IMG/VR virus record: IMGVR_UViG_3300032241_000324 | Coordinates: 1 to 27,704 of that record | Reading direction: 5' to 3' (one strand) | Origin: a virus | DNA: 27,704 nt | Shown here: positions 3,481 to 8,309 of the stretch, piece after piece | How the letters are laid out: the number at the start of each line of letters is the position of its first letter | How positions within the stretch are numbered: the stretch's first letter is position 1 | The notes under the pieces: generated by a model | What the model saw: the letters and a program-made list of their open reading frames with translations, nothing else | What the model was told of the DNA's origin: nothing | Databases searched by the model: none | Made by a program: the position numbers and the translations under genes

Positions 3481-3993
3481 TTATTCTCCTAATTTTTCAC
3501 ATAAATGTCCTTTATGGTGCTTTCTCACACCTAAAGAAACTAAAGACATTTTAGAACTATCTAAATTATTATCTATACACCACTTATACATATTTGTCAC
3601 GGTCAATTTTGTTCCGTCTGGTTTAGTTATTAACCAATTTTTAGATTTACCTTTTGAAATATTTTTTTTGTGTTCTTCGGTTTTTTTCTTATTCTTTAAA
3701 GTTTGGCTTATTTTTATCTTGTCTGATTCTGGACACTTTCTACCTAAATTCGCTTTATGTCCAATTGGAGGCCTAGATTTTTTTCCAGCCATAATAAATA
3801 ATTCATGCAATAATTCTTCTTTACCTATAATACCAGCTAACCCTTTCCAAGCTAATTCATCTTCTTTTTTACCATATTGTTCAAAAAGAATACGGTGTGC
3901 TTCTGCGTGTTCTTCTACTGTTAATTCAATTAAATTTGATGGTTCATCAGTACCACCAGCATGACGAGGTATTATGTGGTGTTTATGTTTCAT
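3481..3993 (-). CDS. HNH homing endonuclease between gp13 and gp14
   Basis: A 170-residue protein. The HNH nuclease motif is at the very N-terminus: MKHKHHIIPRHAGGTDEPSN, then LIELTVEEHAEAHRILF, giving the paired histidines (H5/H6), the central Asn and the downstream His that form the beta-beta-alpha metal site. The middle is Lys-rich with a KTEEHKKNISKGK stretch resembling NUMOD3-type DNA-binding elements. The C-terminus (about 124-168) has WCIDNNLDSSKMSLVSLG followed by HHKGH, a probable DNA-binding helix-turn-helix module that also ends the other HNH protein here. It is inserted cleanly: one base after gp13 ends and one base before gp14 starts, with its last codons supplying the gp14 ribosome binding site. 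It is a probable free-standing homing endonuclease; activity is not shown by sequence. Confidence 0.86.
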   Translation of the reverse strand: MKHKHHIIPRHAGGTDEPSNLIELTVEEHAEAHRILFEQYGKKEDELAWKGLAGIIGKEELLHELFIMAGKKSRPPIGHKANLGRKCPESDKIKISQTLKNKKKTEEHKKNISKGKSKNWLITKPDGTKLTVTNMYKWCIDNNLDSSKMSLVSLGVRKHHKGHLCEKLGE

Positions 3994-3994
3994 A

Positions 3995-4768
3995 TTAGTT
4001 CATAAAAAATTCCAGCGGCGCACCGTAATTCATTTCCATTTCTTTCTCTAATCTTTCAATTTCGTCTGTGGCTTCTTTTTGAATAGTTTTGCCATCTAAT
4101 GTAACGCCGCCAGGTAATTGTAGACCAGCAAACTTAGAAAGATTATTACCCCAACTTCTTTTAATGAGTTGTGTAGCATACTCTTTTATCCAACGGTCAT
4201 TCCATACCAAATTATAAACATCTGGATTAATGGCTGCATATGCTTCAGCAATCACAACAGTACCAACTGGTGCTTCAGAATCGCCCCATGACCAATCAAT
4301 ATAGAGTCTTTGCATATGTCTTTGGAAGCGAATAGGAACTTCTCCAGTGAACATAATTTCTAGAGAACGTAAGTGTTGTTGTGTTAAAGTGTAGTTGATG
4401 TAGGACGCTGAGGTGAAGTCGTACAACTCATTTAGTCTTAATTGATATCTAAGGTCAAACATATTGACGGAAGATTGAGAATCAGATACCGGGAATATAC
4501 GAGTGATACCAACAATTTCCATTGGATTACCTTGAGCATCTGTTGATTGACTTAAATCTAAATAGCTATTATCAATGTCGGTTTGTTGCAAACCTTTGAT
4601 ATAATAAACTTTTTGTAGTCCATCAAAGTGATAATCTTGCCAATATTGTAAGGCGTCATCTATCCTGTCCTGCACTTGATCCGAGTCAACATTTATTTCT
4701 ATCACGGGAAATCCTAATCTACGCAAGCAATAATTGGTAAAATCTTCTCTATTAGTTATTGTTGCCAT
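3995..4768 (-). CDS. 13: Neck protein (T4 gp13-like)
   Basis: A 257-residue protein. The signature is near the N-terminus: an RRLGFPVIEINVDSDQVQDR stretch followed by IDDALQYWQDYHFDG (about 16-50), the typical opening of gp13 neck proteins in T4-like marine phages. Further conserved-looking parts are the RHMQRLYIDWSWGD segment (about 150-163) and the LVWNDRWIKEYATQLIKRSWG helix (about 186-206). In T4, gp13 works with gp14 in the head-to-tail neck. The predicted start overlaps the 3' end of the upstream HNH gene by 13 bases; that gene's stop codon is read out of frame from the gp13 start. A modest AGGA site lies about 10 bases upstream. Its first 15 codons are duplicated at the start of the HNH gene. 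Confidence 0.87.
   Translation of the reverse strand: MATITNREDFTNYCLRRLGFPVIEINVDSDQVQDRIDDALQYWQDYHFDGLQKVYYIKGLQQTDIDNSYLDLSQSTDAQGNPMEIVGITRIFPVSDSQSSVNMFDLRYQLRLNELYDFTSASYINYTLTQQHLRSLEIMFTGEVPIRFQRHMQRLYIDWSWGDSEAPVGTVVIAEAYAAINPDVYNLVWNDRWIKEYATQLIKRSWGNNLSKFAGLQLPGGVTLDGKTIQKEATDEIERLEKEMEMNYGAPLEFFMN
4724..4768 (-). repeat. gp13 5' end, second copy of the direct repeat
   Basis: The functional gp13 start. It pairs with the repeat at 5407-5451. It also contains the HNH stop codon out of frame (4756-4758). Confidence 0.82.
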
Positions 4769-5451
4769 TTATTGTATCCTTTGTGTGTTATCTGTTTACC
4801 TGAATTAACTCTAGTCATAGCACCTTGGTCTAAATTATTTTTTCTACAAAATTCTCTTAAATTAAATATATCAACTTTTTGATTATTGTAAATAAAAGAA
4901 TAATTTTTACATTTTTTTATAAAAAAACCTTCTTTGTGTTTTTTGCCATACATAGGATTTTTTGTGCCTGTCGTTAAAGATTTAATATAATTCTTATGTT
5001 CTTCGGTGTGTTTATATCCAAAAGCTGGATGTTTATTTCCTTTTAGTCCATATAATGAATTATTTTCACCACTATTTTTTCTTGACACTACTTGTATATA
5101 TTGTTTTTTTACTGATGTATAAATCTTAGAATTAATTTTTAATTTTCTAAGGTTTTTCATGTGATGTGATATATTCCATAAAGCATACAACATTTTATCT
5201 TTATCTTTTCCTTCTAACATTTTAGGCAGCAAAAGATGACAAATAAAATGTTCCCGTGCAGTTAAAAATACGGTATCATTATTTTTACAAATACTTTTGG
5301 GAATTATGTGGTGATTTTCCACATATATCGGTGATGTTTTTTTGTTCCAACCACGAAGTAAAGCATTTTCTATGATAGAAAAATACCACTTACTATACTT
5401 ATTATCTAAGCAGTAAGACTTAAAATCGTTCCAATTAGTAATTGTTGCCAT
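4756..5451 (-). CDS. HNH homing endonuclease carrying a copy of the gp13 N-terminus
   Basis: A 231-residue protein. The ATG at 5449-5451 is chosen because AGGAGA lies 5 bases upstream; a TTG one codon earlier is possible. Residues 1-15 (MATITNWNDFKSYCL) copy the gp13 start and probably are not part of the nuclease. The nuclease follows: YSKWYFSIIENALLRG, then the HNH core ENHHIIPKSICKNND (about 46-59) and AREHFICHLL (about 66-75). A central tract with NKHPAFGYKHTEEH and TGTKNPMYGKKH has two NUMOD3-like motifs, which bind DNA in phage homing endonucleases. The C-terminus (NLREFCRKNNL to HKGYNKW) resembles the end of the other HNH protein. The last four residues, KWQQ, are encoded by the gp13 start region in another frame. 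Expression appears controlled by a promoter-in-hairpin element just upstream. Confidence 0.88.
   Translation of the reverse strand: MATITNWNDFKSYCLDNKYSKWYFSIIENALLRGWNKKTSPIYVENHHIIPKSICKNNDTVFLTAREHFICHLLLPKMLEGKDKDKMLYALWNISHHMKNLRKLKINSKIYTSVKKQYIQVVSRKNSGENNSLYGLKGNKHPAFGYKHTEEHKNYIKSLTTGTKNPMYGKKHKEGFFIKKCKNYSFIYNNQKVDIFNLREFCRKNNLDQGAMTRVNSGKQITHKGYNKWQQ
5407..5451 (-). repeat. Copy of the gp13 5' end at the start of the HNH gene
   Basis: Forty-five bases aligned without gaps to 4724-4768, the start of gp13. By hand count 34 of 45 bases and 11 of 15 residues match (MATITN..DF..YCL). Similarity stops sharply after codon 15. The two copies flank the HNH coding region as direct repeats about 680 bases apart. 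Confidence 0.85.
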
Positions 5452-5454
5452 CAA

Positions 5455-5491
5455 TTTCTCCTATTATGAAGTATTTATCTAATAGGAGAAA
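5455..5491 (-). promoter_or_regulatory. Perfect 12-bp inverted repeat enclosing a late promoter and sequestering a ribosome binding site
   Basis: The arms 5455-5466 and 5480-5491 are exact reverse complements (12 of 12). The 13-base loop contains the promoter motif GATAAATA (minus strand, 5479-5472). The downstream arm includes AGGAGA, the binding site for the HNH start at 5451. A transcript reading through from upstream genes would fold this arm into the stem and block translation. A transcript starting from the loop promoter would lack the upstream arm and be translated. The same arrangement is described for T4 genes such as e, soc, 49 and the I-TevI ORF. A terminator is less likely because no T-rich run follows either arm. 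Confidence 0.75.
5472..5479 (-). promoter_or_regulatory. Late-type promoter GATAAATA
   Basis: A match to 7 of 8 bases of the T4 late -10 element TATAAATA, located in the hairpin loop 21 bases upstream of the HNH start and directing transcription into the HNH-gp13-HNH-gp14-gp15 unit. Late promoters of this type need only this element plus the phage sigma and clamp system. Confidence 0.7.
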
Positions 5492-5504
5492 CGAGGCTTT
5501 TGTA

Positions 5505-5705
5505 TTATTGAATTACTTTTGAACCTAGAGGACCATCTGGTTGAGCAGGTTGAAGTTGCTCTCTTGCTTGATTACTAACTTTATCAATCAAACCACGACT
5601 AAATTTGTGTGGTAATTCATCTAAACCAGCAATTATTGTATTCAATTCATTGATGGTAACTGTAATGGTAACAGTTTGTTCTTGTTGTTGAACTTGGTCA
5701 TTCAT
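5505..5705 (-). CDS. Small unnamed protein, 66 residues
   Basis: A short ORF with a good AGGAG site 7 bases before the ATG. It starts with a Gln-rich segment (MNDQVQQQEQ), then an alternating Val/Thr/Ile strand (TVTITVTINELNTIIAGLDE), LPHKFSRGLIDKV and a C-terminal Pro-rich end (QPAQPDGPLGSKVIQ). It has no membrane segment and no signal peptide. Similar short proteins with a strand followed by an ELP motif occur upstream of gp13 in T4-like marine phages as far as I recall, but no function is known to me. It follows the 131-residue gene after 28 bases and is probably co-transcribed with it. The gap after it (5455-5504) holds the regulatory hairpin. Confidence 0.7.
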   Translation of the reverse strand: MNDQVQQQEQTVTITVTINELNTIIAGLDELPHKFSRGLIDKVSNQAREQLQPAQPDGPLGSKVIQ

Positions 5706-5733
5706 ATCAAAACTCCTATGTTAAAAAATTATA

Positions 5734-6129
5734 TTAAGTGTTGCTTGTATTAGCCCACGGTAAAGCAGGTTCAGAAATAATATTAATCTGATTATTAATC
5801 TGTTCATTAATTTTTTCATTAATGTGGTCAGCATAAGAACCAGTAATACTATTATATATCCAGCTCAAAACATTCGCTTCCTGTAATTGATTGAAATGAA
5901 TAAACTCACCTGTATCATTTGCTGTTAAAGTAAATGGAGTTGCACCGGAGAAAGTACCTGTTTGATTTGCTGGAGTTACTGCTGTATAATCCCAATAAGT
6001 TTGAATAACGGTATTTGGATATACATTACCAGATACGGTTACATCTCTAACTTTGAGGCTTTTGATGGTGTGGGTATAAGTCCACTCGGTATTGGCTAAA
6101 GTTGCCAATGTATTTACTGTGTCTGCCAT
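5734..6129 (-). CDS. Unnamed probable structural protein, 131 residues
   Basis: It begins MADTVNTLATLANTEWTYTH, followed by a beta-rich middle with PNTVIQTYWDYTAV and a GTFSGATPFTL segment, then a QLQEANVLSWIYNSI helix, a polar repeat INEKINEQINNQIN and an EPALPW end. It has no enzymatic motif, signal peptide or transmembrane segment. The ribosome binding site is strong (AGGAGAAAATAATG). A full TATAAATA late promoter lies 45 bases upstream, so this gene heads its own late transcript that may continue into the 66-residue gene and the neck genes. The style and position suggest a small virion or tail-associated protein of marine T4-like phages. The role is not established. Confidence 0.72.
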   Translation of the reverse strand: MADTVNTLATLANTEWTYTHTIKSLKVRDVTVSGNVYPNTVIQTYWDYTAVTPANQTGTFSGATPFTLTANDTGEFIHFNQLQEANVLSWIYNSITGSYADHINEKINEQINNQINIISEPALPWANTSNT

Positions 6130-6173
6130 TATTTTCTCCTAAAATGTTGGCGTTAATGAAGTTGCTGCCATAG

Positions 6174-6181
6174 TATTTATA
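6174..6181 (-). promoter_or_regulatory. Late promoter TATAAATA
   Basis: An exact match to the T4 late promoter consensus on the minus strand, placed immediately after the stop codon of the 713-residue collagen-like fibre and 45 bases before the 131-residue gene. This is the best-matching late element in the window. Confidence 0.8.

Positions 6182-8309
<2,128 letters not shown>

Follow-up and report, generated by a model that had tools for sequence, protein, structure and literature searches.

We found that the gene for an HNH endonuclease in a T4-like phage opens as its downstream neighbour, the neck gene gp13, and that gp13 itself has a chimeric 5' end. The sequence evidence makes it very likely that a free-standing HNH homing element invaded the gp13 coding sequence without splicing and carried a replacement 5' end with it. 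The anatomy of the insertion is strongly supported by the comparisons below; the enzymatic mechanism is put forward as a proposal, in which we infer cleavage and mobility of the element. The window, meaning the whole stretch of 27,704 nucleotides that was analysed, is a T4-like structural region encoded on the minus strand. Read along that strand, it contains tail-fibre genes, genes for 131 and 66 amino acids, the HNH gene, gp13, a second HNH gene, gp14, gp15 and the terminase small subunit. The features at the centre of the analysis are these:

5451-4756, minus strand: HNH open reading frame, stop codon at 4756-4758
5407..5451, minus strand: gp13-derived codons 1-15 opening the HNH gene, probably the recipient's original gp13 start (34/45 to the window's own gp13; collinear with gp13 of the HNH-free locus L020)
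4756..5406, minus strand: HNH homing endonuclease proper, with HNH core, NUMOD3, C-terminal DNA-binding region and stop (phrog_655 4.9e-29, NUMOD3 1.7e-7)
3995..4768, minus strand: gp13, neck protein, head-tail adaptor Ad2 (phrog_211 6.5e-40), ATG at 4766-4768
4777..4782, minus strand: AAAGGA, SD-like site for gp13 within the HNH 3' end, from the sequence

The initial annotation had reported that codons 1-15 of the two genes share 34 of 45 bases and 11 of 15 residues, that the similarity ends abruptly, and that the HNH core follows directly. All three observations were confirmed. When the first 45 nt of the HNH gene were compared with every 45-mer of the window on both strands, the best non-self match was the gp13 start, with all others at 25 identities or fewer. 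Identity fell off immediately past this segment, to 37/60 and 44/90, and the core (NKYSKWYF) began at residue 17. Furthermore, the likeness exceeded the 45 nt, as the leader of the HNH gene is a gp13 leader too.

To place this segment we turned to relatives of the nuclease. When three fused HNH proteins were searched against 50,697 phage records, no match among those listed reached into the first 15 residues; relatives of the window HNH in cultured phages aligned from residue 16-19 onward among the matches listed, and the HNH genes of phiM12, phiN3 and KpV477 begin where the alignment begins. Metagenomic unfused relatives that adjoin other genes start with M..(F)LxNKYxxWY and have no gp13 segment. 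Because unfused relatives start without it, the 15 residues are an addition to the HNH protein. An AlphaFold model (pLDDT 86) had high confidence for roughly its first 90 residues, with block means of pLDDT 89-98, and showed the gp13-derived piece as a short helix ahead of the HNH fold. The confident modelling of this helix is what would be expected if it were a native part of the HNH family whose likeness to gp13 arose by coincidence or convergence. We consider this hardly credible, since the segment is absent from unfused relatives and present only before gp13, and the DNA-level likeness continues through the leader. We also looked for the segment as a normal N-terminus of HNH proteins at unrelated loci and did not find it; these relatives start just before NKYxxWY.

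The nuclease itself has the properties of a free-standing HNH homing endonuclease of the phrog_655, mob-like type. It has the family similarity, its catalytic motif HH...EH...H was invariant across 31 HNH relatives, and its DNA-binding C-terminus is modular: NUMOD3 was found in 24 of the 31, and the fused proteins have at least two types of C-terminus that are shuffled among them. Its occurrence is sporadic, at a fixed site with empty-site relatives, and the replaced gp13 5' end points to flank co-conversion at the level of sequence. dN/dS was 0.09-0.21 in the three least ambiguous HNH pairs (L112/L114, L119/L120 and L113/L115), which argues that the HNH gene is under purifying selection; it was 0.42-0.63 in two pairs that are more divergent and partly chimeric. 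A sequence search of solved structures gave no match to the HNH protein. The top PDB fold match of the HNH part was I-HmuI (PDB 1u3e; probability 1.00, with a weak E-value of 0.045), which resembles it in fold and lacks the gp13-type extension. I-HmuI is encoded within an intron. We noted that the fused HNH at L111:3501-4250 is chimeric, with an N-terminal part like that of L112 and a C-terminal domain like that of the window.

The fusion was not confined to the window. A degenerate DNA pattern over the fusion point (YCLxNxYxxWYF) matched six viral contigs, every one directly before gp13, and a profile scan added further fused loci; the pattern was not found in the bacterial and archaeal genomes searched. 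This HNH lies immediately upstream of gp13 in about 12 lineages including the window (about 11 further ones, metagenomic), compared with about 130 empty gp13 loci. The fusion follows gp13 codon 15 in eleven lineages, and gp13 likeness at the HNH start is weak in L001 and L121. The exception is L123, where the HNH stands behind gp13 codons 1 to ~43, a second type of junction. At L123:2900-3667 the junction reads VAQCTENKY, which would fit a second fusion, deeper in gp13, of an HNH already fused at codon 15. The proposal that a nuclease had inserted into or beside the gp13 5' end is supported, with the point of entry inside gp13, after codon 15, and recurring in many phages.

We asked whether HNH genes beside other genes show the same arrangement. 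Across 41 HNH-downstream pairs scored, gp13 pairs included, any duplication of the downstream start in the non-gp13 pairs was no stronger than in mismatched controls; the L142 pair had a marginal duplication that one control equalled, and L124, L136 and L159, inspected singly, had no comparable duplicated start. Unfused HNH relatives in L124, L128, L136 and L159 lie repeatedly just before one gene family (YRPxKxNDxxFxDR), and those in L129, L144 and L177 before a KKLEELFDLP-type gene, hinting at further fixed insertion sites.

Next, we compared the upstream side of the HNH gene with gp13 loci that have no HNH. The shared flank in the window is

5407..6213, minus strand: flank common with HNH-free L020 (blastn), comprising the tail-fibre gene end, the 131-aa and 66-aa genes, the leader and gp13 codons 1-15

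In L020 the genes for 131 and 66 amino acids recur with the same leader, and gp13 comes next. By blastn, window and L020 were 96.7% identical over 808 bp (-762..+44, counted from the HNH start and the gp13 start, respectively), ending at the fusion point. The HNH side of L118 likewise matched the gp13 side of L043 (87.3% over 1459 bp, to +44), as did that of L111 with L275 (94.8% over 1536 bp, to +35), and shorter collinear flank matches were found for L112, L114, L113 and L115. Because HNH-free flanks and leaders are collinear to this point, the first 15 codons of the HNH frame are those of the recipient's own gp13, which the frame leaves thereafter. The alignments show an open frame that reads from what is, by this comparison, the recipient's gp13 leader, start and 15 codons straight into the nuclease. 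The comparison with HNH-free gp13 loci that had been called for therefore favours the earlier suggestion that the HNH gene took over the original promoter, leader and start, as these, together with the HNH copy of the segment, occupy the place where gp13 starts in HNH-free relatives.

These flanks also bear on whether a single ancient fusion, leader and N-terminus included, has moved between phages as a block. The HNH N-termini (45/45 between L112 and L114) and leaders are closely similar in L111, L112 and L114, as such a block would predict. However, the flanks and leaders of the window, L118 and L111 each find their match in a different local HNH-free phage, over 0.8-1.5 kb and up to codon 12-15, and the window HNH start has more matches to L020 gp13 (40/45) than to the HNH start of any other locus (34/45 at best), so that a single fusion is very unlikely. 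In a Mantel test, whose outcome was no more than suggestive, distances between HNH N-termini correlated only moderately with those of the gp13 body (rho 0.48), compared with rho 0.28 for those of the HNH core.

The leader that now precedes the HNH gene contains the following elements:

5455..5491, minus strand: predicted hairpin TTTCTCCTATTA-GATAAATACTTCA-TAATAGGAGAAA pairing the ribosome-binding site (RNA fold); native gp13 leader, now before HNH
5472..5479, minus strand: T4-type late promoter octamer GATAAATA in the hairpin loop, from the sequence
5458..5462, minus strand: AGGAG, ribosome-binding site of HNH, by its conservation with L020 originally that of gp13

The hairpin is a perfect 12-bp stem (-18.5 kcal/mol, z -5.9 by RNA folding). 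Its repeat was also found before gp13 of the HNH-free loci L020, L296, L303 and L304, and a 9-bp form in the L111/L270 group; inverted repeats of at least 7 bp occurred in 35 of 130 HNH-free leaders, against 6 expected from shuffles. The late promoter octamer NATAAATA was present in 107/130 HNH-free gp13 leaders and 9/11 fused-HNH leaders, compared with 0/11 upstream of gp13 behind an HNH (HNH within 150 nt). These counts indicate that promoter and hairpin are a general property of gp13 leaders, which the nuclease appears to have taken over and not evolved. As judged from the sequence and predicted fold, the late promoter lies inside a hairpin that sequesters the ribosome-binding site, as in T4 hairpin-regulated late genes, and I-TevI, segB and mobE have this same layout (PMC2988022). 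Given how far T4 late promoters usually lie from their start sites, late transcription would begin beyond the 5' arm of the hairpin. Other fused loci likewise have an SD-like gp13 site inside the HNH 3' end, which suggests that gp13 behind an HNH is dependent on an SD written into the nuclease gene.

We then examined the gp13 that follows the nuclease. It is full length (257 aa) although chimeric, and collinear with HNH-free gp13. The chimeric part is

4676..4768, minus strand: putative element-borne replacement gp13 5' end, codons 1 to ~31, breakpoint 4673-4679 (identity switch L023/L020)

Codons 1-32 were 91% identical to L023 and 74% to L020, whereas codons 33-257 were 88% identical to L020 and 80% to L023; the best breakpoint lay at nt 90-96 (permutation p<1e-4). 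This switch shows a second, divergent gp13 5' end directly behind the nuclease, joined to a gp13 body that appears to be of native type. L023 has no HNH, and the exact donor is not among the sequences compared. The initial annotation had described the downstream start as intact and as overlapping the HNH stop: the two frames do overlap, by 13 nt, but the start is not a retained copy, as codons 1 to ~31 are foreign.

To compare loci, we took the shift of gp13 as the identity of codons 1-32 minus that of codons 49-end, relative to the nearest HNH-free relative. Shifts were -14 points for the window, -23 for L118, -21 for L111, -12 for L112 and -7 for L114, compared with a mean of +0.7 and a minimum of -11.5 at 88 HNH-free loci (Mann-Whitney p 1.8e-4 for five HNH-bearing loci that are not fully independent, as L111, L112 and L114 share history). 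L114 alone lies inside the HNH-free range. The test covers loci with a close HNH-free relative; L116, L119 and L123 were left out for want of one. Among HNH-free pairs with a body identity of 84-97%, codons 1-32 trailed the body by at least 13 points in 0/121. Over codons 17-32, L111, L112 and L114 were 88-96% alike, against 73% or less for the listed HNH-free relatives.

These results bear on the earlier proposal that HNH insertion locally doubled the gp13 start, the downstream copy being the old start that has since drifted. Local doubling requires no donor, and the two copies are indeed similar (34/45 here and 37/45 in L116). Yet in the testable loci the nearest HNH-free relatives match the upstream copy and its flank and differ from the downstream gp13 5' end, and drift limited to codons 1-48 was seen in 0/121 HNH-free pairs. 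We regard this account as quite improbable: the downstream start came with the nuclease, and the alternative that the annotation had allowed, acquisition from a phage that has a different gp13, was the right option. The HNH-free locus L063 retains the last ~18 HNH codons (GKQITHKGYSKW) as its gp13 leader, and its gp13 start is the one most like that of the window (92% over 16 codons). Because L063 keeps both the HNH remnant and the window-like start, HNH 3' end and gp13 start travel together. The remnant itself (L063:2380-2466) looks like a loss of the element.

Alternatively, an HNH-bearing phage could have traded its tail-fibre side with an HNH-free phage inside the 45-bp arm, with no homing. 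Tail-fibre modules beside gp13 do recombine, as seen in a 63-codon gp13 remnant of L020 fused to tail-fibre 3' codons, and the window/L020 flank is 96.7% identical while the fused 45 nt match at only 40/45. This exchange is nevertheless unlikely, because it leaves the right-hand breakpoint within gp13 and the native-type body unexplained, and because the window is the odd one in the gp13 5' end against L020, L021, L285 and L286 alike. Local duplication, a single fusion and a flank exchange thus each fail at one of the two junctions. The L020 remnant (L020:2057-2284) has its own leader, precedes the 131-aa gene and continues into sequence that matches the final codons of a tail-fibre gene; it looks as though a cassette from the tail-fibre side took the place of gp13 there and left its old 5' end.

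We therefore return to invasion by a homing element. A free-standing HNH gene of T4-like phages would have entered the essential gp13 after codon 15. The nuclease would cut close to the 5' end of a gp13 that lacks the HNH, and repair of the double-strand break would copy the HNH together with donor gp13 codons 1 to ~30-48 into the gap, crossing over on the left in the short 45-bp gp13-derived arm or the flank and on the right within gp13, at codons ~31-48. Intronless homing with co-conversion is a known pathway (PMC2988022). With the donor gp13 start brought along, gp13 would stay full length and the phage survive; no splicing would be needed, because the element carries the piece of gp13 that its insertion displaces. 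The nuclease would probably benefit by gaining the late promoter of gp13 and the hairpin that sequesters the ribosome-binding site, and the same late transcript would serve for translation of gp13 through the SD within the HNH 3' end. By its divergence, the gp13 5' end may render the occupied locus resistant to cutting, and may lessen loop-out between the two start copies. A group I intron or intein was considered and rejected: positions 4000-6300 gave no Rfam match at E<=1, and there is no continuous product, as the HNH gene has its own stop and gp13 its own start.

One position within the replaced segment was associated with the presence of the nuclease:

4691..4691, minus strand: third base of gp13 codon 26, candidate cleavage/resistance position (Fisher p 2e-7, the best of 1080 tests, in statistics that ignore phylogeny)

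Codon 26 was AAT (third base T) in 12/12 HNH-bearing versus 32/131 HNH-free loci, and the nearest HNH-free relative had AAC in 10/12. AAT may possibly mark the cut site, and we treat it as a lead. Taken further, we lean towards regarding these loci as a distinct class of splicing-free phage homing element, which at the same gp13 codon in most lineages takes the recipient 5' end as promoter, hairpin, ribosome-binding site and N-terminus and gives gp13 a recoded 5' end that resists cleavage, with codon 26 AAT as its candidate mark.

The T4 mob and seg homing endonucleases resemble the window nuclease in combining HNH with a C-terminal DNA-binding region, in their sporadic occurrence beside conserved genes, in a late promoter with a hairpin that sequesters the ribosome-binding site, and in a co-converted flank (PMC2988022). 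The reviewed cases, however, are intergenic or split a host gene in two, as in Aeh1 nrdA/mobE (PMC2988022), and in that review we found no nuclease opened by the start of its target gene with a replacement start. Homing endonucleases of phrog_655 (MobE of Sinorhizobium phages phiM12/phiN3 and a Klebsiella T4-like HNH) belong to the same family at ~30-39% identity but are unfused, with MFN.SKYT-type N-termini, and stand at other loci, the Klebsiella one between baseplate genes. The literature searched, mostly outside subscription journals, yielded no phage precedent.

The nearest precedent that we found is in fungal mitochondria, where endonuclease ORFs (mORFs) bring a foreign 3' end for atp6, atp9, cox2 and nad3 and the native end is left behind (PMC3630166). 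In Allomyces atp6 and in Glomus atp6, atp9, cox2 and nad3, as here, the endonuclease ORF lies inside a protein gene, a foreign end completes the recipient gene with the native end on the far side, and the ORF can share the reading frame of the gene (PMC3630166). The phage locus thus shares with these hybrids a foreign end completing the target gene and a displaced native end. It differs in the end that is replaced, which is 3' in the mORFs, where the displaced piece is a leftover (PMC3630166), and 5' in the phage, which would make the phage case a mirror image. Only in the phage case is the native piece reused as promoter, ribosome-binding site and N-terminus of the nuclease, which is of the HNH family.

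If this interpretation is correct, an essential coding sequence can house such an element without intron or intein. A selfish nuclease could occupy an essential gene without splicing by replacing the piece it displaces and reusing that piece as its control region, and hybrid genes of the fungal-mitochondrial type would also arise in phages. The loci provide natural donor and recipient allele pairs with mapped junctions for questions of cleavage site, co-conversion and resistance. They also call for caution in phage phylogenies, since the 5' end of a conserved structural gene, gp13 for example, can be chimeric.

The other side of gp13 is occupied as well. The second HNH gene of the window (3481-3993) lies exactly between gp13 and gp14, and a second HNH is found at this place in L066, L067 and L080, with a remnant in L026. 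The same gap holds a GIY-YIG nuclease in L020 and an HNH on the opposite strand in L037 and L076.
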